Source of the DNA: Algoriphagus hitonicola
Lineage (GTDB): Bacteria; Bacteroidota; Bacteroidia; Cytophagales; Cyclobacteriaceae
Direction of reading: 5' to 3'
DNA: 64,000 nt
NCBI RefSeq assembly: GCF_900113375.1
Contig: NZ_FOPC01000007.1
Coordinates: 62,001 to 126,000 of the forward strand
Shown: in pieces, positions 6,033-46,891 of the stretch
Position numbering within the stretch: the first letter of the stretch is position 1
How the letters are laid out: every line of letters begins with the position of its first letter
Made by a program: the position numbers and the translations under genes
Notes under the pieces: model-generated
The model's database searches: none
What the model saw: the letters and a program-made list of their open reading frames with translations, nothing else
What the model was told of the DNA's origin: nothing

Positions 6033-6043
6033 GGATTAGAAAT

Positions 6044-12653: not shown

Positions 12654-12663
12654 ATTTTAGCGA

Positions 12664-12919: not shown

Positions 12920-12977
12920 GTTTAAGTTTTCGGCGCTGAGGGCTTTTATATTATTTCTAAACAATCAATTTATCAAA

Positions 12978-13193: not shown

Positions 13194-13210
13194 GGGTTAA
13201 ATTCTCTAAT

Positions 13211-13239
13211 CAGGTCTAGCCACAATAGGGCTAGGCCTG
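13211..13239 (+). terminator. Terminator or attenuator between the small peptide and DUF4221 genes
   Basis: CAGGTCTAGCC at 13211-13221 pairs with GGCTAGGCCTG at 13229-13239 (11 base pairs, one G-U), followed by ATTTTATTTT. It would end most transcripts after the peptide gene and let some pass to the lipoprotein gene. Confidence 0.75.
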
Positions 13240-13353
13240 ATTTTATTTTGATAATAAAATCTATCAAATCGAGAATGACATGGAAATCACCTATTGGCAT
13301 GACTATCAAACCTACAAGGTTTAATGTTGCCTCTGAAAATCAATTATATACAG

Positions 13354-14502: not shown

Positions 14503-14575
14503 CTTTTACTTAAGGTATTTCTAGAATTAAATATATAATTATCCGAAAAGATATTGAAAAATATTTTAGCGATTT

Positions 14576-17530: not shown

Positions 17531-17578
17531 GTTTGAGTTAATTATAATCCTTAAATTTGAGATAAATTTGTGAGGCAC

Positions 17579-29221: not shown

Positions 29222-30349
29222 CTATCCTTGTAAGTCCTTCATTGTCATCAATGGGAGGTCTTTTCGATAGACTTCTTTCAAAAATTTATATTCAGAATTT
29301 GGATAAACCCAACCCTCCTCAGTCAGTTCGTAAAGTAATGGGGCGAGGTTTTGAACTGCCGCTTTACAACCTTGAACTATCGCGCCTATTTTCCCCGTTT
29401 GCTTGGAGAGCACGGCTTCATTTTCGATTTCAAATGGCCCCTCAAATCCTCTTTCTTTTAGCACATGGACAAAAGTTCTCCAATCCATTGAATCTCCCAG
29501 TCCAAAGCCTGGCAAGGTGGCTTCGTAATGATGTCTGTCCCAAGGATTGGTGCTTGAGGGTATTCCTGCTTTTTTTGCCCAGTCCTCTGGAATCTGATGC
29601 ATGGGATACATATTTCCCCAGAAAGGATCCGGATTATTTCGGGTTGATTTGACGTGAATACGTTTGAGGCGTGACCTATCCGTATTTCGGATTACCTCCA
29701 CCGGATCGGTATGCTGCCAAATGTCATGAGAAGGATCGTAGATTTCTCCATGATTGGGGGAGGGGATCAGTTCGTACATCAATTTTCGGGCAGCAAGAAC
29801 ACCGGGTAAATTATTGTAGGTGCCAAAATATCCCGAGTTTCTCCAACCTTCCATCGGGCAATTTTCATACAGAATGCATACGCCAAGATCGGCTGCATAC
29901 TTGATGATCGGAGTGAAAATCCGCTGGAATTCCAACAGGTTTTTTTCAAAACCTCCCTCTTCATTTCCCAATTCATGATTATAGCCGACAAATGTGCCGA
30001 CTTTGACATCATTTTCATCTCCTCCAAGCAGGTAAGCCATTCGGATCAATCGCAACAGGTGATTTTGATTTTTAACTCGCTGACCCGGATCCCCTCCGAT
30101 AAGGTTTTCGAAAGCTCCGATGGATAATCTCAATTCTGCTGAGTTAAATTGATCGATCAGTTTTTTGGCATCCTCGGGACCAAAACTTTCATAATTCAAA
30201 TGTGTAGCGACAAAATCATCTCGTGTACCGTCTCTACGGAAAACGCAAAGGTCCAATCCTTGCACACCGATTTCTTTTGCCTTTTCTATGGTTTGATCCA
30301 GATTGAGCTGGTCAAAAGCAGAAGTCATAATCCAAATGGGATTTGCCAT
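29222..30349 (-). CDS. Sugar-phosphate isomerase/epimerase-like TIM barrel
   Basis: A 375-residue xylose-isomerase-like TIM barrel. Motifs fitting a metal site are CILYENCPMEGW (Glu on a barrel strand), IYDPSHDIWQ (Asp-His), RIHVKSTR (His) and FEIENEA (Glu at the end). The order E, D/H, H, E is that of the family's divalent-metal ligands. The family covers isomerases, epimerases and dehydratases of sugars and inositols, so the substrate is not defined. It has no signal peptide and is cytoplasmic. It lies downstream of the haloperoxidase-like gene behind a terminator, as the last gene of the susCD locus, perhaps expressed by read-through. Confidence 0.75.
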   Translation of the reverse strand: MANPIWIMTSAFDQLNLDQTIEKAKEIGVQGLDLCVFRRDGTRDDFVATHLNYESFGPEDAKKLIDQFNSAELRLSIGAFENLIGGDPGQRVKNQNHLLRLIRMAYLLGGDENDVKVGTFVGYNHELGNEEGGFEKNLLEFQRIFTPIIKYAADLGVCILYENCPMEGWRNSGYFGTYNNLPGVLAARKLMYELIPSPNHGEIYDPSHDIWQHTDPVEVIRNTDRSRLKRIHVKSTRNNPDPFWGNMYPMHQIPEDWAKKAGIPSSTNPWDRHHYEATLPGFGLGDSMDWRTFVHVLKERGFEGPFEIENEAVLSKQTGKIGAIVQGCKAAVQNLAPLLYELTEEGWVYPNSEYKFLKEVYRKDLPLMTMKDLQG

Positions 30350-30372
30350 TATTTTAATTTTTGGGTCAAAAA

Positions 30373-30392
30373 AACAGCCCTTTCGGGCTGTT
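30373..30392 (-). terminator. Terminator after the haloperoxidase-like gene
   Basis: AACAGCCC and GGGCTGTT pair perfectly around TTTC. Read on the minus strand, the stem is followed by a run of seven T. It separates the haloperoxidase-like gene from the isomerase gene. Confidence 0.85.
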
Positions 30393-30396
30393 CAAT

Positions 30397-31740
30397 TTAT
30401 TCATTTTGTGCAAGATTTTTAGGCTTGGTGCTAATTCTGGACCAGAGGAGTTCACCTACTTTTTGGCCTTGCCATACTCCTTCTTCAATCGCAGGCATGT
30501 AGTGAATTCCACCATAAAACCGTGAAATCGCTGCTTCCTCGGCTGCCTCTGAAAAGGAATTATATTCCCGAACCGGAAGTCCATAATTTACTTCGGAGCT
30601 ATCCACAAAATGGAAATCCTCCCCAAATAGCTGCGTCAAGGTGTATGCTGCTGCTGTGGAAGCCACACTGTGTCCGCTAGTGTGTTCTGGGAATGGAGGA
30701 GTTTGAAGCAAGGGGACCCATTCTTCATCAATAAATTGATTGATGTAAGTCTCCGGGCGAACGAGCTTGCTTCGGTATTTTTCATCCCAGCAAGCCACAA
30801 AGGCATCATGAAGCGAAATACCCGTAAGCGCAAGGGCTTCGGCGGTTTTTTTCCAATCCGATTCTGCGGTTTTTGCAGCAATTGCTGCAATACTCATCCA
30901 ATGCCCACCGGGTGTAATTTTTTTCTCGGCAAACATCACATGACCTTTGACATTCATTTTGTAGGGATTACAATCCCAAAACATGGCAATATCCAATTCC
31001 TCTTTTTCCGCAGCATTAACCGCATCATAAACTTCTTTGGCTCGTTTGAAAAACTCCGATTCGGGATCGGTGGAATAAGGCGGTGGGGGAGAAACTTTGT
31101 ACTGACCTGCTGAATCTAAGGTGAAGGTTCGGATTTTGTTCCAATGCGGTTCAATCCCTTCCATGTAGGCCGGAGGTGTCGGCTCCCAAGTTCCGGGGAG
31201 ATTAGTGACTGTGTATTTTGGAAAGGAACGGCTCTGATGATAATTATCCTGTGCGGAATAGGCTTTGACGGCTTCGGCCACTTCTTTACCAAATTCAACA
31301 GAAGCTTCAAAAACATCTCTTGGAATTCCTTTTTCTTTTAATTCCTCAAAGGCTTTGTCCCGATGGGCGTTGACCATTTCTTCGGAGAAAATCAAATGAG
31401 TACCCATGGTATAATAAGCCGCTAGAGAAGCTAGGGGAGGATAAATATTTTCAGGTACGGTGAATTTTACTTCTTCAGAACCCTTGAGTTGCCCCAAGAG
31501 TGATTGGTAGTTGGGGTCTACTGCTGCGGCTACTTCATAGGCCGCCAAGGAAGAATAAGAGTAAATCCGTGCCGCTACCGGAGGGGAAAAGATGTCGTGG
31601 ATAATGACTTCGGTAATCCGGTCTTGAGCCTCGTTTAGGTAATGTCCATCCGTAATGGCTTGACTATAATCAACCGGCTCAGAACAGGAGATTGCCAATG
31701 CAACTAATCCTAAATAAAGCAGGCTTTTAATACGATTCAT
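30397..31740 (-). CDS. PAP2/vanadium haloperoxidase superfamily lipoprotein
   Basis: A 447-residue lipoprotein (lipobox ALAISC) with a mostly helical body. The whole vanadate/phosphate-binding set is present: K321-x6-R328-P in KYRSKLVRPE, the TSGH motif (H353 and H357 in PEHTSGHS), and SR-x5-H with R407 and H413 (SRFYGGIHY). H413 would bind the metal or phosphate. It could be a vanadium haloperoxidase or an acid phosphatase; the two share this site and cannot be told apart from motifs alone. It lies downstream of three VCBS proteins and SusC/SusD. The outer position by lipid anchor points to an extracellular or periplasmic substrate. Confidence 0.82.
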   Translation of the reverse strand: MNRIKSLLYLGLVALAISCSEPVDYSQAITDGHYLNEAQDRITEVIIHDIFSPPVAARIYSYSSLAAYEVAAAVDPNYQSLLGQLKGSEEVKFTVPENIYPPLASLAAYYTMGTHLIFSEEMVNAHRDKAFEELKEKGIPRDVFEASVEFGKEVAEAVKAYSAQDNYHQSRSFPKYTVTNLPGTWEPTPPAYMEGIEPHWNKIRTFTLDSAGQYKVSPPPPYSTDPESEFFKRAKEVYDAVNAAEKEELDIAMFWDCNPYKMNVKGHVMFAEKKITPGGHWMSIAAIAAKTAESDWKKTAEALALTGISLHDAFVACWDEKYRSKLVRPETYINQFIDEEWVPLLQTPPFPEHTSGHSVASTAAAYTLTQLFGEDFHFVDSSEVNYGLPVREYNSFSEAAEEAAISRFYGGIHYMPAIEEGVWQGQKVGELLWSRISTKPKNLAQNE

Positions 31741-31922
31741 ATTTTATTATTTTGCTAAGGGTGCTTTGTGCTTGATTCCAAATTTGGATAAAGGGCAGAA
31801 AGCAGTGATTCTTACAGCCTTAAATTTAATCATTGCCAATCAAAGCTCAAATTATTATCGCTTGTTCCATGGAAGGAAAAGTCAAAGCTAATCTCATTTA
31901 TGAGTCGCACAAATGACTTTTA

Positions 31923-34900
31923 TCAATTTTCTTCAATTTTTAATTGATAAACAGGACCATTATTCGTCACCAGCAATAATTGAGATTGATTTTTGGGCTT
32001 GGGTGAGATAATCGCCCGAACCTCTGAATGGAGTGGGATTGGAATTGAGTGGAGTAAGCTTTCCCATGAGGAACCTGTCCATTTGAGTTGGTGAAATGAC
32101 CGGGCGGTTGATTTTCCTAAATCCACTCGATATCCCGATTCATTTCCTCCTAAACTCAGGAGGCGACTTGACTCATCCCAATGAATAGCCTGTACCGGAC
32201 TTAACTGGATTTCCCACGGAAATGGTTCAAACTCAAAGCTTCCGTCCTCTTGCTGAAAGTACACTCCTGAGCGGAGCTCCACTGCTTTTTTTGGCTTAAC
32301 TTGATTAATGAGCTCAGCTCCGAAAAGGGACTCCGGTGAATCAATCTGGGCATAGCTTGAATAACTCGGATGAAGGCGTTTGATCGAAGGAATTTGCTTG
32401 ATCAGATCATCGCGAGTAGCAAAAGGAACTAGTTTATCCTGCATGTAGTGAAAAATAATGGGGTCGGCCTGACCATTTTGATCAAAATCCGCATGGTATA
32501 ACCAAATCGGTTTTTCCGGGCTTGCTTTGAGTTTTGAGTTTAATCCCAAGTTACCCACGATCATATCCATCAATCCGTCACCGTTAATATCAGCAGTTTT
32601 TATCGCATTGATCCAACCTGAGGAATTCTCAAGCCCATCCAGTTGGATTTCATGAAGTTGGGTTTCAGAAAGTGTAAAAACCCGTATGTCCTGCCAATCC
32701 CCAGCAAGGATCAACTCCTTTTTTCCATCTTGATTTAGATCCGCCCATTGGGCTGAATTGATCATTCCTAATTCTGTGTTGGGTCCAAAAAATGCAGCAG
32801 TGGCCTCTTGAAATTGACCTGAACCATTATTGATTAATAAGTAGCTTTTCGGATTGGCGCCATAGTCTCCCGGCACATTGGAAACGCTCACGAAAATATC
32901 CAAAGCTCCATCTCCATTCACGTCTTCGATTGCCAGACTTGCGGTATTTTCTCCGAGGGGAGGGAGGGCAGTTGGGGAGAAAATAAAATTACCCTTTCCA
33001 TCACCAAAGAAGATCCGGTCAAATAGAAAAAGATTGCCTGATTTTTCTTCATTTCCTCCACTTCCCACATAGAGATCAAGGTTTCCATCTCCATTTAGGT
33101 CGGCGAACTCAGCCACCACATCTTCTGCTTTTGCCAACTGTTCAAAAAACGGATTGGGCACCTCCTGAAAGCTTCCACCCTTATTTTGCAAAAAAAGACT
33201 TCCCGCTTGATCTTTGGCTCCGCCCAAATAAATATCATCCAGCCCATCTCCATTGACATCAGCTGTAGCGACAGCAGGTCCACGGTTGGCAAAACTTTTT
33301 GGAATTAGGTATTCTCGGGCAGATTCATCGAGTTCGGTTTTTTCTTGGTGTTTCCAGTCGATAGGGAAGGAATATCCGTCAGTCTCCGGTTTGCTTATTT
33401 CTTCATTTCGAGGAGTTCCACTTCCTTGCTTCAGCTTCAGTTCTTGATTGCTAGCTACTCCATCAAACTTTTCTAGGTTTCCTTCTGGCCAACGCACCAA
33501 AACGGAATCGATTTTAGTGGTATTTCCCAGTCCAAAAACCAATTCGGTAGGGGTTCCGGATTGGAAACCTCTGCTAGTACTCAGACGCTGTCTCCAGGTT
33601 TGGTTTTCAGCAAAAACACGCACTTCCGCTCCAATTGCCTGAGGGTTTAGACTGGGTGATTTGAGTTTGATTCGAAGAAAATGGTGGAGTAGTTTTTCGC
33701 TTCTATTTTGATAAATAAAAGCTTCCTGATCAATATTATTGATGATCAAATCCAAGTCTCCGTCATTGTCTAGGTCGGCGTAAGTACTACCGTTGGAGTA
33801 GCTGGGCTGATCCAAACCCCAGTTTTTTGCCATCTGCTCAAACTTCAGCTGACCGGTATTTCGAAACGTGTAATTGGGCAACTTGACATTGGGGAGCATG
33901 TCGATTTGCTTTTGACGAACTTGATCCAGTGTGAGTGTAGGATCGACTGTTTGGGAATATTGGATAAAATCCAGATCGTTTGGGCGCTTGACAATGCCAT
34001 TACTGATGTGGAGGTCGGTGAGTCCATCATTATCCATATCAAAAAGTAGTGGAGACCAGCTCCAGTCCGAGGCAAATACCTCCGAGTAAAGTGCGATTTC
34101 ACTGAATCCCTGAGCTCCTTGATTGAGTTGGAGATGGTTACGGACATATTGATCACCATAGTTCAGGTTTTTTTTGATCTTGTAGACTTCCGCTTTATCT
34201 TCTCCGACTGACTTCATCCAGATTTCTGGGTCTTCGGGAAGCATATCGGTGGTGATGATTTCGGGAAGACCATCTCCATTGAGGTCTGCGGCATCATTTC
34301 CCATCGAATAGCGGGAGGTGTGGGCGATCAGTTTCTCCAGGGATTCGGTAAATGTCCCATCTTGATTATTCAGGTAGAGGTAATCGTTTTCGGTAAAATC
34401 ATTGGAAACATAAATGTCCGGCCAGCCATCTCCATTGAAATCCTCAATGCTGAGACCTAAACCAAAACCCAAAATGCTGGAATAAATTCCAGCTTCATCT
34501 GTCACTTCCTCAAACCCAATATCCCCTTCGGCGGCAAAATTTTTAAAGAGTTTATCTCCACTCTGTTCGGGAAGATTTCTGTTTTCTGCTTTCACAAAGA
34601 CTTCTGGCGATTTGATCCCATGATTGAGTAGGTAAAGATCCAGATCCCCATCCCGATCGTAGTCAAAAAATGCCGCATGGGTGCTGAAACCTTCGAAATC
34701 CAATCCATATTCCGCTGCAACTTCCTCGAAAGTCGAGTCTCCCTGATTGAGATAAAGTTTGTTTTTTCCGCTTAGGCCTAAGTAATTCCCTACCTGACAG
34801 ACATAGATGTCCAAGAGACCATCCCCATTGACATCAGCCATGGTAACTCCCGTGGACCAGCCACCATCCCCAGACACGCCGGCAGATTCGGTGATGTCTC

Positions 34901-35204
34901 GGAATTTGAAATTTCCCTCGTTGAGGTAAAGCTTATTGGAAACTTGATTTCCGGTAAAATAAAGGTCGACCAAGCCGTCATTATTTATGTCACCAGCCGC
35001 CACGCCCCCTCCATTGTAAAAATAGAGGTACTCTAAAATGTTGAGTTCGGAGGTGGAGGTTAACTCATTGGAAAAAGTGATTCCAGTTTGATTTCCGGGG
35101 AGTAATTCAAACAGCGTTTCCTTCTTCGGCTCTTCTTTGCAGGAAAAAAAACATAATCCCACCGCCAGAAACCAGCTAGATCCAATTATTTTATTCAATC
35201 CCAT
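31923..35204 (-). CDS. VCBS/FG-GAP repeat lipoprotein with ASPIC/UnbV domain, paralogue 1
   Basis: About 1093 residues. ATG 35204 gives a clean lipoprotein signal (GLNKIIGSSWFLAVGLCFFSC); ATG 35228 would add eight residues. It then has two sets of FG-GAP/VCBS beta-propeller repeats with calcium-loop motifs DxNxDG (ADVNGDGLLDIY and many others), with an ASPIC/UnbV domain near residues 505-600 between them. The start overlaps the end of the preceding paralogue by 14 bases. The family (CRTAC1-like) is extracellular and calcium-binding; function is unknown. This copy is separated from the haloperoxidase gene by 182 bases with no clear terminator. Confidence 0.85.
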   Translation of the reverse strand: MGLNKIIGSSWFLAVGLCFFSCKEEPKKETLFELLPGNQTGITFSNELTSTSELNILEYLYFYNGGGVAAGDINNDGLVDLYFTGNQVSNKLYLNEGNFKFRDITESAGVSGDGGWSTGVTMADVNGDGLLDIYVCQVGNYLGLSGKNKLYLNQGDSTFEEVAAEYGLDFEGFSTHAAFFDYDRDGDLDLYLLNHGIKSPEVFVKAENRNLPEQSGDKLFKNFAAEGDIGFEEVTDEAGIYSSILGFGLGLSIEDFNGDGWPDIYVSNDFTENDYLYLNNQDGTFTESLEKLIAHTSRYSMGNDAADLNGDGLPEIITTDMLPEDPEIWMKSVGEDKAEVYKIKKNLNYGDQYVRNHLQLNQGAQGFSEIALYSEVFASDWSWSPLLFDMDNDGLTDLHISNGIVKRPNDLDFIQYSQTVDPTLTLDQVRQKQIDMLPNVKLPNYTFRNTGQLKFEQMAKNWGLDQPSYSNGSTYADLDNDGDLDLIINNIDQEAFIYQNRSEKLLHHFLRIKLKSPSLNPQAIGAEVRVFAENQTWRQRLSTSRGFQSGTPTELVFGLGNTTKIDSVLVRWPEGNLEKFDGVASNQELKLKQGSGTPRNEEISKPETDGYSFPIDWKHQEKTELDESAREYLIPKSFANRGPAVATADVNGDGLDDIYLGGAKDQAGSLFLQNKGGSFQEVPNPFFEQLAKAEDVVAEFADLNGDGNLDLYVGSGGNEEKSGNLFLFDRIFFGDGKGNFIFSPTALPPLGENTASLAIEDVNGDGALDIFVSVSNVPGDYGANPKSYLLINNGSGQFQEATAAFFGPNTELGMINSAQWADLNQDGKKELILAGDWQDIRVFTLSETQLHEIQLDGLENSSGWINAIKTADINGDGLMDMIVGNLGLNSKLKASPEKPIWLYHADFDQNGQADPIIFHYMQDKLVPFATRDDLIKQIPSIKRLHPSYSSYAQIDSPESLFGAELINQVKPKKAVELRSGVYFQQEDGSFEFEPFPWEIQLSPVQAIHWDESSRLLSLGGNESGYRVDLGKSTARSFHQLKWTGSSWESLLHSIPIPLHSEVRAIISPKPKNQSQLLLVTNNGPVYQLKIEEN

Positions 35205-38200
35205 AATTCCAGAATTCCGCCGAGTCATTGTTTTTGATGATCAGCAGGCGATTGTTTCCCAAATTTGAAATCGCTCGGATGTCTCCTTCGAGTTTCAAAC
35301 CGTGCTCCGCATTTGGCATAAAGGTGAAGGTCCCATCTCCTTTTCCCAGTAATACCTCACCAAAACCCGCATCTGATTTCCCAATCTCCGGTTTGATGCC
35401 ATAGAGGTTTCCTCCTAAAATTAAATCCAGAATTCCGTCTTCGTTCAAGTCTAGGGTCTCTATGGCAAAAGTCCAGGTTTTTTGAGCCATTCGAGGAAAG
35501 GCTTTCCATTCAAATTTCCCCGAACCTTCATTTATAAGGACGCCGGATTCAAAATGATTGACTTCCCGAATGATGGATTTGGAGATCGTTTCCGCATCAA
35601 AAATCTGATCTAGACTTTGATTGTTGTAACTCGTGTAGCGAACGTATTTTTTTCTGATTTCCGGGATTTGCTTTTCCAATTCATGCTTGAGTACAAAGGG
35701 AATCTGTTTACCGGATTCCGTGGTGGTAAAAAGTTGCTCAATGGATCCGTTTTGATCAAAATCATTCAAATACATGCGAATGGGATTATCCGCACTTGCC
35801 TTGAAACGCGTATTAAGCCCTTGATTTCCCAAAAGAATATCCGGAAGTCCATCAGCATTCATGTCAGCGATTTCCACGGTACGGTACCAGCCTTTGAGTT
35901 TTTCGAATTCGGGCATTTCGATCTTTTCAAACTTTCCTCCAGTATTTTTAAAAAAAATCGGAGCGATCCAATCTCCCACCAAAACCAGATCCTGTAGACC
36001 ATCCTGATCCCAGTCCAAAATTGCCGCATCCGAGATCATCCCAACTTCCTTAAATTCTGGTGCAAGTTCTTCGGTTTGATTACTGAAACTTCCCTTTCCA
36101 TCATTGATCCAAACCTGACTGGAAGCTGGAGCTCCATAGACGAAAGGCACCAATCGCTCGGTAATAATGAGGTCATCGGCTCCATCATCATTGATATCGA
36201 TAATCTGCACAGATGAGCTACTCCCGCGGATTTGCTGAAGCCCAGAGCTTGTGTTTTTGGAGAAGTTTCCTTTTCCATCGTTGAGATAGATTCGGTCTGC
36301 CAAATCGGGAGCATTTCGAGGGGATTCATTTCCGCCCGAAGTCACGATTAAATCCAGAAAGCCATCTCCATTGGCATCGAAAAAGGCAGCGTCAGTATCC
36401 TCCGAAGCAGCATCGACTGAGAAATCCGCTTGTTCTTTTTCCACAAACCGACCATCTGAAATACCTAGATATAATTTCCCGGTATTTCCCTTTGCGCCAC
36501 CAAGATAAAGGTCATCCAATCCATCGCCATCGACATCCCCTTTCGCAAAAGCAGGCCCCTCAGTAGAAAGCATGTGATAGGTCAATCGATCCCGATCAAA
36601 ATCTACAAAAGGGTTTTCCTGATGGGTGTAATTGAGTGAGTTTTGGTCATTTCGGGCGAATTTGATGCCCATCGGAGATTTTTTTATTGGGTTTTGGTAC
36701 ACTTGCGCGTCTTCCCAACTGAGTTTTAGGAGTTGGTTTGCCTGAATATTTTCCAGGATAGTTTGAGAACCATCCGGCCAGGTCACAGTCAATTCATCGA
36801 GTTGGGTGATTTTTCCCAAACCCAAGGTGAGCTTAGGATCTACCGAAGACTGGAATCCTCTGTTGGGCATTTGCTCCAAATAAAACACCTGGTCTCCCGC
36901 TTTTGCCTTTAGCTGGGCACCGATGGCAAAGGTGTTTTGATCTTTGCCGACAAGGCGAAATTGAATAAAGTTATTTTCGGGAGCGATTTCCCGCTGGGCA
37001 TTTTTAAAGATCTGGGCAGGCCGGTTGACATTGTTCACGACCAAGTCCAGCGTTCCGTCATTGTTCAAATCTCCATAAGCTGCGCCATTGGAGTGAATGG
37101 CTTCGCCAAGTCCCCAATCATCTGCTTTGTTTTCAAACTTCAAGTCCCCTAAGTTTTGGTAGGCATAGTTGGGAATGGGATTGATCGGAATGGGATCGAT
37201 GAGTGCCTTATAATCCACTCCTTCTTGGGAAATGATCTTGATTTTGGTCTCCTCATCATCGATGAAGTTGAGGTAATCCAAATCTGTAATGTCTTGATAG
37301 ATGCCATTAGCCACAAATAAATCCCGAAGGCCATCATTGTCCATATCAAAAATCAAGGCTCCCCAACTCCAGTCGGTAGCTTCGACATTGGCCATTCGTC
37401 CCAGTTCACTGAATGTGCCATCCCCATTGTTGATGTGGAGCATGTTTCTGGAAAATTGATAATGGTAACCATGGGTTTTATTGAACTGAAACCTATCCCA
37501 ATTCTCAAAAGTCGTGACCTGCTTCAGCCGGGCAAGAGGCTCGGGTAGCATATCAGTGACAAAAATATCCAGCAGACCGTCCCCATTGATATCAGCAATG
37601 TCTGCACCCATAGATGCTGCGGAAATGGATCGCATGGAGTTTTCCAGCGATTCGGTAAATGTCCCGTCCTGATTATTGATGTATAGGTAATCCCGTTCAA
37701 AAAAATCATTGGAAATAAAGATATCCGGCCAGCTATCCTGATTGACATCTCCGATGGTGATTCCCAAACCAAAACCAATGATGGAACCATAAATTCCGGC
37801 TTCCTCACTCACATCGGTGAAGCGATCCCCGTCATTTCTGAATAATTTATCTCCGCCTACGGGATCTCGTTTGGGCCGCTCATTTTGCATTTTGTTGAAG
37901 CTTCCGATAGCTTGATAGCTATTGTTGAGTAAATAAACGTCCAGGTCACCGTCTTTGTCATAATCAAAGAATACCGCATGGGTAGAGAAGCCCTGATCGG
38001 CCAATCCATACTCTTCGGCTTTTTCGACAAAAGTACCATCACCTTGATTGATGAAAAGTTCGTTTTGCTTATTGTCTCCGGAGATGTCCCCTGAGTTGCA
38101 GACGTAAATGTCCAAAAACCCGTCTCCGTTTACATCTGCCATGGCTACTCCGGTACTCCATGCTCGATTTCCTGCCACGCCTGCTTGCTCAGTGACATCT

Positions 38201-38493: not shown

Positions 38494-39074
38494 GAAGCTT
38501 CTTTTTCGAGTTGTTTTTGGATTTTGAGATCGACGATTTCTGCGCGGATGGTGGATAGGTCTTTTTTGAAAATCCGGATTCTTCGGTTCCCATCGATTTT
38601 TACAAAGGCAATCAGACTTTTATCCTCATTGCTGACCTCAAAAAATCCCTCTCCGTATAAGTTTTCAAAATACCCGACGACATCTTCTCTGAGTTTTTCT
38701 ACCGCCAATTCTTCATTCCAAGGTGCCCAACCGTCATAGGTGAATTCCACCGGCATCAAGTAGATTTTTTCATTTTCAAATTTGGGATAAAATCGCATAC
38801 GGGCAGGTTTTCCTGAGGGAAGCTCGGGAACATATTCCACAGATAGCTCAGTGGGCCCATTAGTCAATACCCCTTCTTTGTTCAGGTCCCAGCAGGTCTC
38901 ATAAAACCCCTTGCGATCCATGCCTAATTGCAATCCGAGAAAGAGTTCATTCACTTCTTTGCCAGAGGCAAGCTCCCGCTCTTCAATCTTTTGATATTCG
39001 GATTGGCAGGCTGCCAGAAGAATGAGTAAAAAGGTGACTTTAGCGAATCTTAAATAAAATCGGTTCCTGATCAT
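38490..39074 (-). CDS. Small lipoprotein of unknown family, between the VCBS paralogues
   Basis: About 194 residues from ATG 39074; ATG 39122 is possible but would run deeper into the preceding gene and add a non-signal stretch. The signal ends in LLAACQ, a lipobox. The mature part is mixed alpha/beta (QLGMDRKGFYETCWDLNKEG, VEFTYDGWAPWNEE) with a basic, helical C-terminus. No family is recognised. It overlaps both its neighbours (35 bases with paralogue 3, four bases with paralogue 2), so it is surely made with them, perhaps as a periplasmic partner. Confidence 0.65.
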   Translation of the reverse strand: MIRNRFYLRFAKVTFLLILLAACQSEYQKIEERELASGKEVNELFLGLQLGMDRKGFYETCWDLNKEGVLTNGPTELSVEYVPELPSGKPARMRFYPKFENEKIYLMPVEFTYDGWAPWNEELAVEKLREDVVGYFENLYGEGFFEVSNEDKSLIAFVKIDGNRRIRIFKKDLSTIRAEIVDLKIQKQLEKEAS

Positions 39075-42000
39075 TTCGTAAAACGAGTAAATGTGGTTTG
39101 TTTTCAATTTGTATTTTTTCAAAATCCCTTATTTCTCCCGGAATTGCCATTCCACTGGCTTCGGGATAGAGCGCTTTCCATTCTCCTTGTTGGGTTTGCT
39201 TCAATACCCATCCGTAACTTCCCAGATTACTGCCAAGTTCGGGTTTGATGCGGGATTGATTTCCACCCAGAACCAGGTAGGACTCTCCATCCGAATCTTG
39301 AAAATGATTGATGGCATAGATTGGGGCAAACTGGACTTCTATGGGGAGTACTTTTTTATCAAAACCACCTTTTCCATTATTTAGCCAAAGGCTGGTTTCC
39401 TGTAAGTCTAGCTCCAAAATTAAGGAATTTGAGAGAACTATGGGAAAAAAGAGCTCTTCCATTGTCTTGTCCTGATAGGCCGCATAGGTGGTCAATTGTT
39501 TTCTCAAATAGGGGAGTTGGCGGATAAGTGCATTTTTGGTCAACAGCGGAAAATTTCTGCCGTTTTCCAGACGAGTCAGAATGGGGTCCCAAGATCCATT
39601 TTGATCAAAGTCATTAATAAACATTCGGTTTATGAATTTATTCCTTGAGTTTAGCCGACTGTTTAATCCGATATTCCCCGCCAAAATATCGGGTAATCCA
39701 TCCTCGTTGAGATCCTCGACTAGAAGGGAATTCCAAAGTCCTCTCGTCTGAACCAGTCCAAAGTTCTTAGTGATATCCTCAAATTGACCATTCGCCGTTT
39801 GGAAAATTTTGATTCCCATCCATTCACCTGCCAGAATCAATTCTTCCAAGCCGTCTTGATCCAAATCCGCCAATGCTCCGCTGGTAATCATTCCGATTTG
39901 AGAAAGTGCCGGATTTGCTTTTGTATTGACTTCGGTAAATTTTCCATTTCCTTGGTTTTCCCAGAGGCCTAGCCCTACCGCTTCGCCATAGTGAAAAGGA
40001 GCCGCTCGCTGTCCCAAAATCAAATCCAGATCTCCATCTCGATCCCAATCCAAGGAAAGGGCGAAGGAGGTGGATTGACTGGAGAAGGTTTGCGAGACTT
40101 CGGAGAAATTCCCCTTACCATCATTCAGATACAAGCGATCCTGATAAAAAGGACTTCCCTCGCCAAACTCTATACTTCCACTATACACCAAAATATCGAG
40201 ATGACTGTCCTGATTGGCGTCAAAAAAGTGTACTCCAATGTCTTCAGAGAGCTTATTTTTTTCCGAATCGGGGAGAAAATTTGCGGTGAATGAGCCATCC
40301 CTATTTTGGAAAAAAAGCTGACTGGGAAACCCTTTGGCTCCTGGCAAAAGCAAGTCCATCAAGCCATCCGAGTTGAGGTCTCCGAGCTCACCTTTTGGGC
40401 CTTCGTTGCTGATTGCCCAAAACCGTAATCGATCCCGGTCAAAATCAATAAAATCACTTTCCTGATGTCGGTAGTCAAGGGGCAGGGAAACTCTCGAAAG
40501 TAAAGTTGCTAATGTCTCTGGTTTAGGTTTGGGCGGCTGAGTATTTTCTGTGGTTAATTTCAGCGTTTGATTGGTCGGAATGTCAGTAAGGATACTTTGG
40601 AGATTATTGGGCCAATCGATGATGATCGAGTCGATTTGGGTGGAATTGCCCAATCCAAAATGCACCAATGGGTCAACAGAGGACATGTAGCCTTTGACCG
40701 CTTGATATTCTTGGGTGAAGGTTTGATTTTGAGCTTTTAGGGTGATTTTAGCACCAAATTCGCTTCCCAGATCAAACTTTAGATAGTTGCCCAAGCCCTG
40801 TTCGATAGCCATATTTTTAAAAACTCCAGCCTCCGAGTTGAGGTTGTTTACGACCAAATCCAGGTCTCCGTCATTGTCGAGATCACCATAAGCCGCTCCG
40901 GAGCTGAAGGTGGATTGGTCCAAGCCTGAGGAAGCCGCCCGATTTTCAAAGTTCCAATTTCCGAGATTTTTAAACCAATAATTCTGAAGGGGATTGGAGG
41001 GGAACTCGTCAATCATTTTGGTGATCAGCAGGGAATCGGATTTGTTTTGCTTGACTTCCTGCTGCTTATCCAAATAGAAGTCCACGAAATCAAAATCAGT
41101 GAGGTCTTTAACAATTCCATTGGCGACAAAGACGTCTTTCCAGCCATCCAAATCCGCATCAAAAATCAAGGCTCCCCAGCTCCAGTCCGTGGCATGCATC
41201 CCGGTCAGTCGGCTGATTTCTGCAAAGATGGGTTCACCCGTTTCCGGATGTTTGCCAAGGTTCTTTTGAAGGGTATTTCGGGTAAACTGTCGATGGTATC
41301 CTGCATCGAAATTTGCCTGAAACTTATCCCATTCTTCAAAGGGAGTTTTGGTCTTTACCCGGGCGAGATCCTCGGGGAGCATTTCTGTGACAAATACATC
41401 GGGTAGACCGTCATTATCCAAATCGGCAATATCCGCGCCCATAGAACCCAGACTGATTTCCGGCATGGCTTCAGGTAGTATCTCCCTGAAAGTCCCGTCT
41501 TGATTGTTGAGGTAAAGGTAGTCCCGCTCAAAAAAATCATTGGAAACGTAAAGATCCGGCCAATTGTCTCCATTTAAATCGGCCACTGTCACGCCCAAAC
41601 CATAGCCAATGCTACTACCATAAATCCCGGCTTCTTCACTGACATCCGTAAAATAATCTCCTTCATTTCTATACAGCTTATTCCCTCCATCAGGATCACG
41701 GATTTCCCGTTGGCCCTCTCGTAGGTCATAGATGCCTACCGATCTTCCCGAGTTGCTGAGGAGATAGAAATCCAGATCCCCGTCTTTGTCATAATCAAAA
41801 AATACGGCATGCTGAGAAAGCCCCTGATCATTCAGCCCATAGGATTTTGACATTTCCTTGAAGGTCAAATCTCCCTGATTGATAAATAACTCATTGTGTC
41901 GTTTCTCGCCTCCCGGAGGCCCGGATTTGCAGAGGTAAATGTCGATTAGCCCGTCGCCATTGATGTCGGCCATACTCACTCCGGTGGTCCAATACCCAAT

Positions 42001-42327
42001 GGACTCAAGACCTGCCGAGTTGGTTATATCTTTGAATTTGAAGTTCCCTTCGTTGAGGTAAAGTCTGTTTGAGCATTGATTTCCTGCGAAAAAAATATCA
42101 ATCAGTCCATCATTGTTGATGTCTCCCAAGGCGACACCGGCGCCGTTATAAAAATTTCGGAAGGTATAGGGATTGATTTCTTCGGTGTAAAAAAGATCAT
42201 TTCTAAAGTCTATTCCACTAAGATCTGAGTTGATAGGGGAAAAAAGTGTAGCCGTCTCCTCGCTCTCATCAGTACAAGAGAGTAACACGTTGAAGCTAAG
42301 CAGGAAGATAATTATCCTGTATTTCAT
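39040..42327 (-). CDS. VCBS/FG-GAP repeat lipoprotein with ASPIC/UnbV domain, paralogue 3
   Basis: About 1095 residues from ATG 42327, which gives the signal KYRIIIFLLSFNVLLSC; ATG 42357 lies within the upstream terminator hairpin. It shows the same design as paralogues 1 and 2: repeat set, ASPIC/UnbV domain near residues 510-600, then a second set. It is the first of the four linked genes after susD and the copy closest to the import pair. The hairpin between susD and this gene means that it may be expressed at a lower level than SusCD. Function is unknown. Confidence 0.86.
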   Translation of the reverse strand: MKYRIIIFLLSFNVLLSCTDESEETATLFSPINSDLSGIDFRNDLFYTEEINPYTFRNFYNGAGVALGDINNDGLIDIFFAGNQCSNRLYLNEGNFKFKDITNSAGLESIGYWTTGVSMADINGDGLIDIYLCKSGPPGGEKRHNELFINQGDLTFKEMSKSYGLNDQGLSQHAVFFDYDKDGDLDFYLLSNSGRSVGIYDLREGQREIRDPDGGNKLYRNEGDYFTDVSEEAGIYGSSIGYGLGVTVADLNGDNWPDLYVSNDFFERDYLYLNNQDGTFREILPEAMPEISLGSMGADIADLDNDGLPDVFVTEMLPEDLARVKTKTPFEEWDKFQANFDAGYHRQFTRNTLQKNLGKHPETGEPIFAEISRLTGMHATDWSWGALIFDADLDGWKDVFVANGIVKDLTDFDFVDFYLDKQQEVKQNKSDSLLITKMIDEFPSNPLQNYWFKNLGNWNFENRAASSGLDQSTFSSGAAYGDLDNDGDLDLVVNNLNSEAGVFKNMAIEQGLGNYLKFDLGSEFGAKITLKAQNQTFTQEYQAVKGYMSSVDPLVHFGLGNSTQIDSIIIDWPNNLQSILTDIPTNQTLKLTTENTQPPKPKPETLATLLSRVSLPLDYRHQESDFIDFDRDRLRFWAISNEGPKGELGDLNSDGLMDLLLPGAKGFPSQLFFQNRDGSFTANFLPDSEKNKLSEDIGVHFFDANQDSHLDILVYSGSIEFGEGSPFYQDRLYLNDGKGNFSEVSQTFSSQSTSFALSLDWDRDGDLDLILGQRAAPFHYGEAVGLGLWENQGNGKFTEVNTKANPALSQIGMITSGALADLDQDGLEELILAGEWMGIKIFQTANGQFEDITKNFGLVQTRGLWNSLLVEDLNEDGLPDILAGNIGLNSRLNSRNKFINRMFINDFDQNGSWDPILTRLENGRNFPLLTKNALIRQLPYLRKQLTTYAAYQDKTMEELFFPIVLSNSLILELDLQETSLWLNNGKGGFDKKVLPIEVQFAPIYAINHFQDSDGESYLVLGGNQSRIKPELGSNLGSYGWVLKQTQQGEWKALYPEASGMAIPGEIRDFEKIQIENKPHLLVLRNDQEPILFKIR

Positions 42328-42341
42328 AAGGGTAGTAAAAA

Positions 42342-42371
42342 AAAGGAAGTGCACCAATGTACACTTCCTTT
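42342..42371 (-). terminator. Terminator or attenuator after susD
   Basis: AAAGGAAGTG at 42342-42351 pairs with CACTTCCTTT at 42362-42371. On the minus strand the stem is followed by eight T. It would end susCD transcripts and let a part continue to the VCBS genes. Confidence 0.8.
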
Positions 42372-42390
42372 CAATTTATTCAGGTATAAA

Positions 42391-43881
42391 TTAATAACCT
42401 GGGTTCTGAGTCAAAGTAGGGTTAGCATTGATTTGCTGCAATGGAATAGGGAACAAAGCTCTGAATGGCTCTGATTGTCCTTTTTCCCACCAAGGCTGAG
42501 TCCACTTTCCGAATCGAATCTGATCTGTTCTTCTAGAAGCTTCAGCGAAGAACTCAAATCCTCTTTCGTTGAAAATATCATCCAAAGTTAAAGCTCCTAA
42601 TGGGTCTAAACCGGCTCTTTCTCTGACCATATTGAATGGCTCAAGCGCTTCAGAAGCATTTCCTTGACGGAAAGCAGCTTCCGCTTTGGTCAAATACATA
42701 TCGCTCAATCGGATCAACGGATAATCGTTGCTTAGATTGGAGGATGCACCAGAGGCGATTTCATATTTTCCCACACGGACACCTGCTTGTCTTAGCGCGT
42801 TTGGCGCTAACTGATTAATCTCTGGAGTGAAGGTTAATGGCTCACCGTCCGGATCATTGTCCTCAGCAGAAATGTCGTTGAGGCGTGTGCCGTCAGCAGC
42901 AAACTGAGGTCCCTCTAGGAAGGAGTTCTTTCTGACATCGTCATCATCGAATGAATTGTAAAACTCTTCAAGGGATGCGTAGCCATTCCAAGGCTGCTCT
43001 TGCAAGTCATAAGTAGCCTGATTAGAATAGTGAAGCGTCATCTGTGCGATGTTGAATCCTCCAGCATTATTCTCGTCATAAGGCAGCGTCAGGATATTTT
43101 CAGTCGATCCACCATTTCTAGTCGCAAAGTTTGCAAAGTAGTTTTGAGAAAGAGAATAAAGACCACTATTGATCACGACGTCCGCAGCAGCTTCCGCGTC
43201 AGCCCATCTCGGAGTTCCCGTATAGACTTCCGCGTTTAGATAAAGCTTTGCCAAAACTGCATGTGCAGAATAGTAATTCAAGGTGGTTTTGGTATCTTCT
43301 TTTGGAAGTAAATCAACATTTTCTAAAATTGAAGCTTCGATAAAATCGAATACCTCTTGTCTGGTATTGTTGGTTGGGTTTCCTTCCAAATCATCTTCTG
43401 TGATGATCGGAACATTTCCAAAGCTGTCGATCAGCCAAGAATAAACCAAAGCTCTCAACACGCGTAATTCTGCGGTAAGTAGTTCTACATCTCTATAGGC
43501 TACAATCAAGTTGTTGATCTCACCGATTGCCGTGTAGCAATAAGCCCAAGAGTTATTGAAAGCTTCATCAGATGGTTGCCAGGTGTGCCTGTGCATTCTT
43601 AACCATAGTCCGCCATCTTCCCAGTCAGCTCCTTTTTGAGGAATAGCCATCTCATCGGAAGAGATTTCGTAAATGGACCAAATACTGTTATGAGACCCCC
43701 AGCTCCCGACGATTCGGGAGTAGGCAGAGGCTTTCAAGACATCAATCAATACCGGATTGTTGCTATTATTTACCTCTTCCTGCGTAATCCCATCCAGCAC
43801 CTCTTGATCCAACTCCCAGCATGATCCCAGCATCAATGTCGCAGGGATCAAAAGAAAGGTTTTTCTAAATGATTTAAACAT
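42391..43881 (-). CDS. susD: SusD/RagB family nutrient-binding outer-membrane lipoprotein
   Basis: A 496-residue surface lipoprotein (lipobox LMLGSC) with the SusD helical TPR body. Recognisable pieces are the N-terminal EVLDGITQEEVNN region, SRIVGSWGSHN, the RVLRALVYSWLIDSFGNVPI helix with its central Tyr/Trp, the C-terminal LTKAEAAFRQGNASEALEP helix and the final INANPTLTQNPGY. It binds the ligand over the SusC pore and acts as its lid. It starts 19 bases after susC. The ligand cannot be read from sequence; the gene symbol denotes the family only. Confidence 0.92.
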   Translation of the reverse strand: MFKSFRKTFLLIPATLMLGSCWELDQEVLDGITQEEVNNSNNPVLIDVLKASAYSRIVGSWGSHNSIWSIYEISSDEMAIPQKGADWEDGGLWLRMHRHTWQPSDEAFNNSWAYCYTAIGEINNLIVAYRDVELLTAELRVLRALVYSWLIDSFGNVPIITEDDLEGNPTNNTRQEVFDFIEASILENVDLLPKEDTKTTLNYYSAHAVLAKLYLNAEVYTGTPRWADAEAAADVVINSGLYSLSQNYFANFATRNGGSTENILTLPYDENNAGGFNIAQMTLHYSNQATYDLQEQPWNGYASLEEFYNSFDDDDVRKNSFLEGPQFAADGTRLNDISAEDNDPDGEPLTFTPEINQLAPNALRQAGVRVGKYEIASGASSNLSNDYPLIRLSDMYLTKAEAAFRQGNASEALEPFNMVRERAGLDPLGALTLDDIFNERGFEFFAEASRRTDQIRFGKWTQPWWEKGQSEPFRALFPIPLQQINANPTLTQNPGY

Positions 43882-43900
43882 ATCTCTGTATTTTGATTGA

Positions 43901-46891
43901 TTATTTGAAGTTTAAAGAAAGTCCCAATGTAAATGAGCGAGTTTGGAAATACGTATTTCTTCGCTCAATACCTGGAGAAAGTGAAGTGGTGAATCCATCT
44001 CCATTTTCCAAATCTGTTACTCTTGCTTCCGGATCAATTCCTGAATAGTTGGTAATGGTAAACAGGTTTTGTCCAGCGAAGTACACCCTTAAAGAACCCA
44101 AATTTGGAGAATTGGTTTTGAAGTTATAACCAATTTCCATGTTGTCCAGACGGACAAAGCTTGCATCTTCTACATACGAACTGTTGAATGTAGGAGTTGA
44201 AGTAATAAACGGATCGGTAGGAGTTTTGTCAGTGACTACAGAATTCCAAGTAATTGAAGCACCGTCTGCGTTTTCGTAGAATCCTCGGTAAGAGTTATAC
44301 AAATCATGTCCCCAAACTCCTCTCAAGAAGAAATTCAAGGTGAATTGTCTCCAAGCAAAGTTGTTGGCAAATCCAAATTCTCCTTTTGGAAGACCGTTGC
44401 CCAATCGCTCGAATTCATCCGGATTGGTCGTAGAAAGGATGTATTCACCGGATTCTGAGATGCCTTCCAATCTTGGACCATAGATGTCACCCAACGTCTG
44501 ACCTACTCGGTTGTAGATAATTGGGTTGTTGTTTTGTCCAGGAGAGCCTGGAGTTGCAAAACGTAATTCATCAAAACCAAGACCTGATGCTGATAAGCTA
44601 TTGATCTGAGTTTTCTGGTAGATAGTGAAGTTACCACTAGGAGTCCAAATCACCTCTCCGAGGTTAAGGCCGTTGACAGCAACTGAGAATTCAAAACCTG
44701 CATTGCTCAAATCTGCCAAGTTTACCCAAGTACTTCCTACCGTATTGAATCGTCCTGGATCAAAGATGTTTGGTCCACCGCCCACAGGTACGTTGAATAG
44801 TAGGTCAGAAATATTTCGGGTATAGTAGTCCATGCTACCCGTTACCTTATTATCCCAAATCCCGAAGTCAATACCCACGTTAAATTCTTCTTTGGTTTCC
44901 CACTTTAGGAATCGGTTAGGGTTTGAATTTTGGACGATACCCACATATACGTCATCGGTAGAAAGCGGATCTCCATCCAAATCAATTCGGTTACCATTTC
45001 CGAAGACACCTAAAGCAAGGGTAGGAGAAGGAGGAAGATTACCCGTTACACCGAATGAAACTCTTGGCTTGAATTGGGAAAATAAGCCCATATCAAACAG
45101 CTGAGTAAAGTCAGATCCTATAGAGAATGCAGGGAACACACCAGTTTGATTTTCCGGTCCAAAACCAGAATACGTTTCTGCCCTTACAGATGCTGAGACA
45201 AACAGGTAATTATTGTAATTGAAGTTTGCTCTTCCGAAAACGGAATTCAACTGATCCTGATTGGCATAGGAGTACATGTTGGTAAAGTTACCCACTCGGA
45301 TCGCTCCAGCTCCCAAATTGTCCCAGCCCGTGTCGAAAAGGAACTGTCTGGATCTAGCGCCAAATCCTTGGTTTTTGGTAGTTTGAGTACCCACACCACC
45401 CAACAATGCTAAATTCAAGCCATCTGTGATATCTACTTCATATCGAAGGGTAGATTCAAAGATTTGCTGTCTTCTGTCATTGGTGATTCGCTCCGCCGAA
45501 CCTCTGGATCCAAGTCCAACTTGAAAATCCTGTCTTGACCAGAAACCACCGATCAAATCATTACTTCTGTCTTCAGAATACTGAGCCGAAACCGTCAAAT
45601 TCGGTAAAATATCATATTCCGCACGATAAGAGGTCAAAGCAGTTTTTCTTTCATTTCTGAATTTCTGCTGATTGATCATTGCGACCGGGTTGAAGAAGTC
45701 AAATAGGTCTCTCTGGAAATATCCTCCAAATCGTTCATTTGCATCCTCAGTATCCTCAAAAATTGGCGCAGTTGGATTGTAAATGGTAGCATATCTGAAT
45801 GCCGCATCATTGATGGAATTCGATTCGATAGTACTGAAGGATAAATTCACATTCATTCTCAGCTTATTATCAAAAGCAGCTTGAGAAAGGTTGATTCGAG
45901 TATTTATCCGGTCATTTGATGAGCCCTGAACGATACCATTGTTACTTCTATAGTTTACAGCAGCCAAATAATTGGTGTTGTTAAATCCACCAGAAACACT
46001 GGCATTGGTCGTGTAGGAATAAGCGTCCCGAATCAGTTCTTGTCTCCAATCGGTTTCACTGCCAAAGTCTGTGCCTCCTCTTGCTACAAATTCTTCTGCA
46101 GAAAGGATAGGAATTAGATTGGCAGCTTTGTCCAAAGTACCAAATGAGTTGATGTTGACTTCCGCTCTTCCTTCTTTGCTTCCTTTTTTGGTCGTGGTGA
46201 TCAAGATAACACCGGATGAACCTCTAGCACCGTAGATCGCTGCTGCCGAACCGTCTTTCAATACATCGATGGACTGAATGTCATTGGGATCGACGTTTTC
46301 AAGCGATGCTCCAATTACTCCATCCAATACAATCAATGGAGAAGAGTTGGCTCCGAACGTGGAAAGACCACGAAGACGAATATTGAATCCGGCATTTGGG
46401 TTACCACCAGGTCGGGTGATGGATAGACCGGCTACTTTACCTTGTAGCAATTGAGCCGGATTAGAGACATTACCTCGGTTGAAATCCTCCGGAGAAACAC
46501 CCACTACTGCGGAGGTGATTTCTTTCTTGTCTTGAGAACCGTAACCGATGACTACCGCCTCTTCCAAACTTTGGATATCTTCTTCGAGGTTGATAGTAAA
46601 TGTACTTTGGCTACCAATCTCAATTTCTTGAGTCAGATAACCAACGAACGACACCACGAGAATTTCATCTCCTGGTCTTACTTCCAAGGTGAACTTTCCG
46701 TCTAGATCAGTAGGAACGCCTCGCGTGGTCCCCTTGATCAAAACTGTGGCACCTGGAACAGGGTCTCCAAAGGAAGCATCCAGGACAGTACCCGTGATGG
46801 TTCTACTTTGGGCATTGGCTACTAACGTGGCTCCAAAAAGGAGCATGATCGCCAGCGTCAATGTCTTTGCTTTTTGTAAATAATTTCTCAT
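43901..46891 (-). CDS. susC: SusC/RagA family TonB-linked outer-membrane transporter
   Basis: About 996 residues. ATG 46891 (RNYLQKAKTLTLAIMLLFGA) gives a good signal peptide; ATG 46942 would add 17 residues. A CarboxypepD-regulatory-like domain (about 30-110, TITGTVLDASFGDPVPGATV) precedes the plug (about 115-235; LLQGKVAGLSITRPGGNPNAGFNIRLRG and SSGVILITTTKKG) and a 22-stranded barrel ending in LGLSLNFK. The transporter imports a ligand held by SusD using TonB energy. No SusR-type regulator or anti-sigma factor is in the neighbourhood, but two palindromes lie upstream. The gene symbol denotes the family only. Confidence 0.93.
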   Translation of the reverse strand: MRNYLQKAKTLTLAIMLLFGATLVANAQSRTITGTVLDASFGDPVPGATVLIKGTTRGVPTDLDGKFTLEVRPGDEILVVSFVGYLTQEIEIGSQSTFTINLEEDIQSLEEAVVIGYGSQDKKEITSAVVGVSPEDFNRGNVSNPAQLLQGKVAGLSITRPGGNPNAGFNIRLRGLSTFGANSSPLIVLDGVIGASLENVDPNDIQSIDVLKDGSAAAIYGARGSSGVILITTTKKGSKEGRAEVNINSFGTLDKAANLIPILSAEEFVARGGTDFGSETDWRQELIRDAYSYTTNASVSGGFNNTNYLAAVNYRSNNGIVQGSSNDRINTRINLSQAAFDNKLRMNVNLSFSTIESNSINDAAFRYATIYNPTAPIFEDTEDANERFGGYFQRDLFDFFNPVAMINQQKFRNERKTALTSYRAEYDILPNLTVSAQYSEDRSNDLIGGFWSRQDFQVGLGSRGSAERITNDRRQQIFESTLRYEVDITDGLNLALLGGVGTQTTKNQGFGARSRQFLFDTGWDNLGAGAIRVGNFTNMYSYANQDQLNSVFGRANFNYNNYLFVSASVRAETYSGFGPENQTGVFPAFSIGSDFTQLFDMGLFSQFKPRVSFGVTGNLPPSPTLALGVFGNGNRIDLDGDPLSTDDVYVGIVQNSNPNRFLKWETKEEFNVGIDFGIWDNKVTGSMDYYTRNISDLLFNVPVGGGPNIFDPGRFNTVGSTWVNLADLSNAGFEFSVAVNGLNLGEVIWTPSGNFTIYQKTQINSLSASGLGFDELRFATPGSPGQNNNPIIYNRVGQTLGDIYGPRLEGISESGEYILSTTNPDEFERLGNGLPKGEFGFANNFAWRQFTLNFFLRGVWGHDLYNSYRGFYENADGASITWNSVVTDKTPTDPFITSTPTFNSSYVEDASFVRLDNMEIGYNFKTNSPNLGSLRVYFAGQNLFTITNYSGIDPEARVTDLENGDGFTTSLSPGIERRNTYFQTRSFTLGLSLNFK

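Follow-up and report, generated by a model that had tools for sequence, protein, structure and literature searches.

A SusC/SusD locus with ASPIC lipoproteins and a vanadium iodoperoxidase-type protein in Algoriphagus hitonicola, and its recurrence across Bacteroidota

To our knowledge, no partner protein has been named for the bacterial vanadium iodoperoxidases, and no function is known for the bacterial lipoproteins that carry ASPIC and FG-GAP domains. The iodoperoxidase closest to the subject of this study is zgVIPO1 of Zobellia galactanivorans (PDB 4CIT/4USZ), reportedly presented as a vanadium iodoperoxidase in the title of the 2014 paper by Fournier et al. At least five homologues of the zgVIPO1 type are carried by Arenibacter sp. 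C-21, a bacterium with calcium- and glucose-dependent iodine uptake; the paper on it (PMC5064120) mentions no connection with ASPIC or SusCD genes. In polysaccharide utilization loci (PULs) such as FjDexUL of Flavobacterium johnsoniae, SusC, SusD and further surface lipoproteins are encoded in a single operon; an excerpt of PMC10316084 assigns the kojibiose hydrolase FjGH65A to this dextran locus. Elements of these systems come together in a cluster of genes on the minus strand at positions 29222-46891 of a stretch of 64,000 nucleotides from Algoriphagus hitonicola (contig NZ_FOPC01000007.1), referred to as a whole as the window. In order, the cluster encodes SusC, SusD, an ASPIC lipoprotein (a), a small lipoprotein, two further ASPIC lipoproteins (b and c), a vanadium iodoperoxidase-type protein (the peroxidase) and a TIM-barrel protein (Table 1).

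The reading favoured here, in which confidence and doubt are about evenly balanced, takes the locus for an outer-membrane uptake operon resembling a PUL, in which a vanadium iodoperoxidase occupies the surface-enzyme slot, replacing a glycoside hydrolase (GH); the roles of its parts are inferred. Iodoperoxidases, SusCD and ASPIC proteins are each already known, and their conserved combination would represent a Sus-like system that includes a redox enzyme. Among the open-licence papers searched, no report of this combination was found. Like FjDexUL, the locus combines SusC and SusD with other surface lipoproteins in a single operon, and its sister loci carry a GH65 of the FjGH65A kind; unlike FjDexUL-like PULs, it has ASPIC proteins and a peroxidase in place of a SusE/F-type protein and a glycoside hydrolase. 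A Pfam scan, which covered 31 of the window's 32 open reading frames (ORFs) of at least 200 aa, assigns CarbopepD_reg_2 and Plug domains to the SusC-type protein and SusD_RagB to its neighbour, FG-GAP_3 with UnbV_ASPIC to three proteins, and PAP2 and AP_endonuc_2 to one each, and finds neither a glycoside hydrolase family nor a SusE/F-type protein in 29222-46891. A preliminary description of the window had listed the same set of proteins, without a glycoside hydrolase, and the coordinates together with Pfam and NCBIfam agree with it.

In the favoured uptake operon the ASPIC lipoproteins, probably stabilised by calcium, would fill the role of the SusE/F-type surface binding proteins and keep both ligand and peroxidase close to SusCD. 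SusCD would take in a small ligand that contains sugar, most likely an alpha-glucoside in the window's subtype, and enzymes that Algoriphagus encodes elsewhere would then hydrolyse it. At the surface the peroxidase would consume environmental or host hydrogen peroxide (H2O2) and iodide. The most likely purpose would be removal of H2O2 and release of hypoiodite beside the importer, amounting to protection during feeding on algae or phytoplankton; modification of the ligand prior to import is a less likely one. The preliminary description had suggested that the cell may import a product of this enzyme.

Table 1. Features of the A. hitonicola locus, with window coordinates
Feature	Coordinates	Strand	Evidence or remark
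SusC/RagA-type TonB-dependent transporter	43901..46891	-	ATG at 46891; OMP_RagA_SusC; solved relative 8aa4
SusD-type surface lipoprotein	42391..43881	-	SusD_RagB 4.5e-29; solved relatives 3jys, SusD 3ck7
Intercistronic hairpin with T run (14 pairs), separating susD from ASPIC a	42341..42372	-	Structured segments after susD in 23 picked loci
FG-GAP/VCBS and ASPIC/UnbV lipoprotein a	39040..42327	-	Pfam
Small lipoprotein (194 aa) without known family or confident fold match	38490..39074	-	Pfam, NCBIfam, fold search
FG-GAP/VCBS and ASPIC/UnbV lipoprotein b; ASPIC domain between two beta-propellers	35191..38493	-	Pfam; structure model
FG-GAP/VCBS and ASPIC/UnbV lipoprotein c	31923..35228	-	Pfam
Vanadium iodoperoxidase-type (PAP2 superfamily) lipoprotein	30397..31740	-	PAP2 4e-08; 4cit/4usz E 3.1e-142; active-site residues
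Xylose-isomerase-like TIM-barrel protein	29222..30349	-	AP_endonuc_2 4.8e-16; lineage-specific neighbour, probably not core

In a comparison with all solved structures, the best match of the window peroxidase is the vanadium haloperoxidase of Z. galactanivorans (4cit/4usz), with E 3.1e-142 across residues 7-446; the runner-up lies at E 0.036. Of 431 aligned residues, 222 are the same in zgVIPO1. Its identity to the proteins of the nearest named loci is 94% (an Algoriphagus metagenome-assembled genome) and 91% (A. faecimaris). The full PAP2/haloperoxidase active-site set that had been claimed for it is there, with KX6RP, TSGH and SRX5H complete and all vanadate-site residues in place. Of 296 Bacteroidota genomes sampled, 66 gave matches to a profile of the peroxidase; matches of at least 150 bits (weaker ones were dropped) define 97 phylum loci, each read with about 20 kb around it, or 19 kb or less in 14 cases owing to contig ends. 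Throughout these 97 loci the vanadate site is conserved at K321, R328 and H413 (97/97 each), R407 (96/97) and H357 (95/97). In a tree of the 97 loci, the window protein and zgVIPO1, the last two fall into one branch of 80 rows. The window protein, a full-length homologue with motifs and branch in common with zgVIPO1, is thus a close homologue of, and probably itself of, the vanadium iodoperoxidase type.

PAP2 phosphatases and haloperoxidases have a common site, and each may show the activity of the other; in the phosphatases, motif 3 has an aspartate four residues past the histidine. As a member of the PAP2 superfamily, the window protein might accordingly be a surface phosphatase whose substrate is a phosphorylated ligand awaiting import; binding of vanadate and oxidation of iodide would then be side activities. 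The preliminary description had given this option equal standing. It is rejected as an equal alternative and appears very improbable, because a vanadium iodoperoxidase is by a wide margin its closest solved relative and because the residue four past the motif 3 histidine, which bears only indirectly on phosphatase activity, is alanine in both the window protein and zgVIPO1. At this position A, G or S is found in 78 of the 79 relatives above 450 bits, as against D in 11 of the 18 below.

The three ASPIC lipoproteins, each of about 1,100 residues, have FG-GAP repeats on either side of the ASPIC domain. An AlphaFold2 model of ASPIC b, with a mean predicted local distance difference test (pLDDT) of 86 and a predicted template modelling (TM) score (pTM) of 0.86, shows a propeller, the ASPIC domain and a second propeller in that order. 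CRTAC1 is the top match by structure and by sequence: the murine protein in Foldseek (E 4.7e-27, target TM 0.72), entry 9etn in VIA-align (Z 39.0, root-mean-square deviation (rmsd) 2.4 over 460 residues, model 25-601) and 9etn again in the sequence search (E 1.2e-25). The FG-GAP propeller followed by a UnbV_ASPIC domain that is typical of CRTAC1/ASPIC proteins is present, and the resemblance to the FG-GAP beta-propellers of CRTAC1 and integrin-alpha holds for fold and sequence. What sets the bacterial protein apart from CRTAC1 is an additional propeller past the ASPIC domain, together with an N-terminus of lipoprotein type. Their N-termini and the company they keep suggest that the lipoproteins of the locus sit at the cell surface.

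Lower in the VIA-align results stand LGI1 (Z about 29-31), unrelated propellers (Z about 24-27) and, barely above the latter, the propeller of aldos-2-ulose dehydratase 4a7k (Z 27.9, rmsd 2.9, 345 residues). Because the first propeller resembles this metal-dependent enzyme, among others, the ASPIC double propellers could be imagined not as simple binders but as calcium-dependent enzymes that oxidise or rearrange sugars at the cell surface and feed H2O2 or a keto-sugar to the iodoperoxidase, forming a SusCD-docked machine for "sugar-fuelled iodination". The idea is a long shot; if true, it would account for the glucose-, oxygen- and calcium-dependent iodine uptake of marine Bacteroidota. As a sequence relative of the ASPIC proteins, aldos-2-ulose dehydratase was rejected, since it is not found among the sequence matches up to E 10.

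The preliminary description had proposed a conserved SusCD-linked system with a surface enzyme other than a carbohydrate-active enzyme, a link that would fall if the gene order were peculiar to one genome. The order recurs widely, which excludes chance. An ASPIC gene is present at 64 of the 97 peroxidase loci and at none of 40 controls, which are shifted regions from the same contig set, chosen by the analyst on long-enough contigs and not matched for orientation. SusC is present at 51/97 loci (9/40 controls), SusD at 44/97 (4/40) and both at 39/97 (4/40), and 37 of these 39 loci have an ASPIC gene as well. The SusD count is a lower bound because divergent types, such as the SusD-like_2 protein of L141, are missed. 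Upstream of the peroxidase, a co-directional ASPIC gene lies at 62 of the 97 loci, or 60 of the 90 for which at least 4 kb upstream was read. It is the immediate neighbour at 49/97 (47/79 above 450 bits), and in 41 of these 49 pairs the gap, measured from the last sense codon to the first possible start codon, is -58 to +41 bp, some pairs overlapping. The term close loci denotes the 80 best of 355, which are near relatives of one another; with 11 omitted for having less than 5 kb upstream, 66 of the remaining 69 have a co-directional upstream ASPIC gene (L029, L074 and L076 do not) and 56 have at least two complete ones. On the scale of genomes, PF07593 (ASPIC) occurs in 141 of the 296 sampled and in 64 of the 66 that bear the peroxidase (missing in G247 and G294). 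The further concern that the haloperoxidase is usually found apart from SusCD proved partly justified, because both SusC and SusD are recognised at 39 of 97 loci only; the pair is nonetheless frequent in comparison with controls. The proposed tie to SusCD is thus frequent and not obligatory, and the ASPIC gene is the tighter partner.

In the branch of the peroxidase tree that holds zgVIPO1, an ASPIC gene lies upstream in 59 of the 80 rows, spanning 11 family codes, and is missing in 19, with 2 rows uncounted. Over the whole tree the upstream-ASPIC label changes 14 times, as against 28.8 in shuffles that ignore relatedness, none of 500 being as low. The two full-length peroxidase paralogues of the window genome belong to different subclades of the zgVIPO1 branch, and each is preceded by an ASPIC gene; the second pair (L181, contig 27:74206-93917, genes at 9839-17146) stands between a ROK-family regulator and a sulfatase, with no SusCD recognised within the 20 kb read. 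When 397 genomes of one family were searched with the 4cit residues, genome G182 yielded a protein 98% identical to zgVIPO1, and its gene (locus L135) lies immediately behind three co-directional ASPIC genes. ASPIC genes were likewise followed in eight genomes, chosen by the analyst, that have ASPIC without the peroxidase: in seven of them (the exception is G112) a SusD gene lies on the same strand no more than about 5.3 kb upstream of the ASPIC domain. Because of this, ASPIC proteins look like general SusCD partners, and the peroxidase would look like an addition to SusCD-ASPIC in one large group.

That SusCD-ASPIC is found without the peroxidase suits a looser arrangement, which we regard as possible, although with more doubt than belief: SusCD-ASPIC would serve nutrient uptake, and the peroxidase would be a separate enzyme of stress or chemical defence that has the operon in common with it and not the task. 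Expression of the Zobellia paralogue vIPO3 rises with the brown alga Ascophyllum, and PMC9296495 considers this paralogue in the context of the algal halogenated defence response. Separate tasks sit less easily with genes that are adjacent and in some cases overlapping at 49 of 97 loci, with an upstream ASPIC pairing maintained across the 11 family codes of the branch, and with two paralogues of one genome, from separate subclades, that are both preceded by an ASPIC gene. Several observations nevertheless count against the favoured uptake operon, some of them also speaking for this alternative. The peroxidase lacks an upstream ASPIC gene at 35/97 loci, five of them with less than 4 kb upstream read, and at 30 of the 90 loci having at least 4 kb; SusC and SusD are not both recognised at 58/97. 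Around the peroxidase gene of L135, unlike at the window locus, the 20 kb read show no recognised SusC or SusD, and the ASPIC-peroxidase pairs of six loci in family f24 (L187, L190-L194) likewise have no SusCD recognised. With its three ASPIC genes and no recognised SusCD, L135 makes the ASPIC-peroxidase pair the core and SusCD a frequent partner. No H2O2-forming enzyme is recognised in the window operon, and the genes of the locus may share nothing but regulation. Finally, other subclasses adjoin GH29 (a five-locus cluster, of which L174 was tested), GH2 (L183), GH30 (L177), a sulfatase (L181) or none recognised, and because of these neighbours the ligand is not uniformly an alpha-glucoside.

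The window's own subtype is delimited by a SusD above 480 bits against a window-type profile, and comprises 24 loci, 22 of which have at least two ASPIC genes. A GH65 gene is found at 11 of the 24, as against 1 of 20 loci with a lower-scoring SusD. GH65 of this type occurs at 13/97 peroxidase loci and 0/40 controls, its profile being built from the same 13 loci that it recovers and hence informative for the controls only. The one GH65 of the sister loci that was tested matches the kojibiose hydrolase FjGH65A at E 3.8e-198. Other loci with a window-type SusD carry a trehalase (L142), a GH97 (L143) or a GH116/MGH1-like protein (L149, L150 and L153), for which the best solved relative, in L149, is an amylo-alpha-1,6-glucosidase (E 1.6e-11). 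An alpha-glucoside hydrolase (GH65, trehalase or GH97) is therefore present at 13/24 loci and a weaker candidate at 3 more; at the remaining 8, four of them Algoriphagus-type, no glycoside hydrolase is recognised. The absence of glycoside hydrolases holds for the window locus and fails as a trait of the system: since 13 of the 24 loci with the window-type SusD carry GH65, trehalase or GH97, it is a feature of the lineage.

PfkB kinases, an amylase-type protein and sugar transporters of the major facilitator superfamily are neighbours of several sister loci. A GH65 gene of the window genome lies elsewhere, on contig 12; among the matches listed, 8 of 14 genomes, representing five genera, have GH65 and peroxidase on one contig and no more than 35 kb apart, which is suggestive only. 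A fair guess, given these genes, is that the ligand of the window's subtype would be an alpha-glucoside, and the guess does not extend to the whole group. Of the features that mark a PUL, the window locus has the adjacent SusC/SusD pair and lacks the carbohydrate-active enzyme, though many sister loci have one. A hydrolase just outside the locus would have made it a plain PUL, as the preliminary description had pointed out. This possibility was rejected: the glycoside hydrolases among the 31 scanned ORFs of the window, a GH3 plus beta-lactamase protein (14576-17578) and a GH16 (5154-6032), lie about 12 and about 23 kb outside.

The glucoside hydrolases of sister operons would free glucose, a point in favour of yet another reading, in which the locus acquires iodine: iodide would be oxidised at the surface to I2 or hypoiodous acid (HOI) with H2O2 from sugar oxidation, and ASPIC proteins and SusCD would capture oxidised or organically bound iodine. 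We consider this unlikely. The operon has no recognised oxidase, and many loci are without SusCD; we know of no iodine uptake in A. hitonicola and of no SusCD pair that serves as an iodine transporter. The attraction of the reading lies in Arenibacter sp. C-21, whose iodine accumulation needs glucose, oxygen and calcium, glucose being dispensable if H2O2 is generated (PMC5064120). FG-GAP repeats, moreover, are calcium binders according to the portion of PMC2668756 seen.

SusC scores 606 bits against NCBIfam OMP_RagA_SusC (cut-off 368), and its best solved relative is the SusC homolog 8aa4 (E 3.8e-74). A correction to the preliminary description concerns the strong hairpin with T run, which stands inside the locus (42372-42341). 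In 23 hand-picked loci, the window's own included, the segment 3' of the susD stop is structured, with z from -2.3 to -7.0 against shuffles that preserve single-base content only. It is mostly a hairpin followed by a T run, its position kept and its sequence divergent, and L163 looks different. The hairpin suggests that SusCD is produced in larger amounts than the downstream proteins; it is possibly an internal terminator or an mRNA stabiliser through which SusCD would differ from the lipoproteins encoded after it.

Downstream of the hairpin, the four genes from 42327 to 31923 overlap, as had been noted: by 35 bp (ASPIC a and small lipoprotein), 4 bp (small lipoprotein and ASPIC b) and 38 bp (ASPIC b and ASPIC c), the last overlap shrinking if ASPIC c starts later. 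The small lipoprotein was rightly said to belong to no known family, Pfam and NCBIfam giving no match. Its model has a pLDDT of 88, and in a fold search no solved structure reached E 0.001, the best value being E 6.1e-3. Orthologues are found at 50 of the 80 close loci and, counting its own, at 5 of the 97 phylum loci. The TIM-barrel gene, which had been taken as a member of the locus, is present and was rejected as a core part: it follows the peroxidase gene within 600 bp at 15 of the 80 close loci, and among the 97 phylum loci it accompanies only L120 and the window's own locus (L216), so that it is better seen as a lineage-specific neighbour. The genes flanking the locus are all on the plus strand: those for RNase H and MarC at one end, one for a DUF5686 protein at the opposite end.

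Several other neighbours of the peroxidase were observed. At L152, L155, L156 and L157 the iodoperoxidase-type gene is followed on its own strand by a second, longer haloperoxidase-like gene (513-552 aa), from which it is separated by one or two genes of 310-369 aa. The ASPIC-peroxidase operons of L140, L141 and L144 encode proteins of one cluster, and the member tested, from L140, matches Cu2_monoox_C weakly and contains a CxxCH motif; a redoxin-like protein is also encoded in L140 and L141 (AhpC/TSA in L140, the one tested), which adds to the redox neighbours of the peroxidase. A conserved protein of about 300 aa occurs near the peroxidase at L124, L125, L127, L136, L138, L139, L142, L143, L145 and L147; in the two cases tested, a GyrI-like small-molecule-binding domain scores above the Pfam cut-off (L142) or below it (L125). 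The six f24 loci have a conserved 327-aa protein nearby, and in five of them a neighbouring ORF presumably resembles an LptF/LptG permease. Elsewhere in the window, at 5154-8221 and about 22 kb from the peroxidase gene, the GH16 gene lies beside a dehydrogenase of the pyrroloquinoline quinone (PQQ) type with a cytochrome c domain. As a class, PQQ-type dehydrogenases are calcium-using enzymes of sugar or alcohol oxidation.

The conserved pairing gives the iodoperoxidases and the ASPIC lipoproteins each a partner and a directly testable context. If the favoured reading is true, Sus-type surface machines would be able to bear redox enzymes in place of hydrolases, which would be relevant to marine iodine cycling and to the feeding of bacteria close to H2O2-releasing algae.

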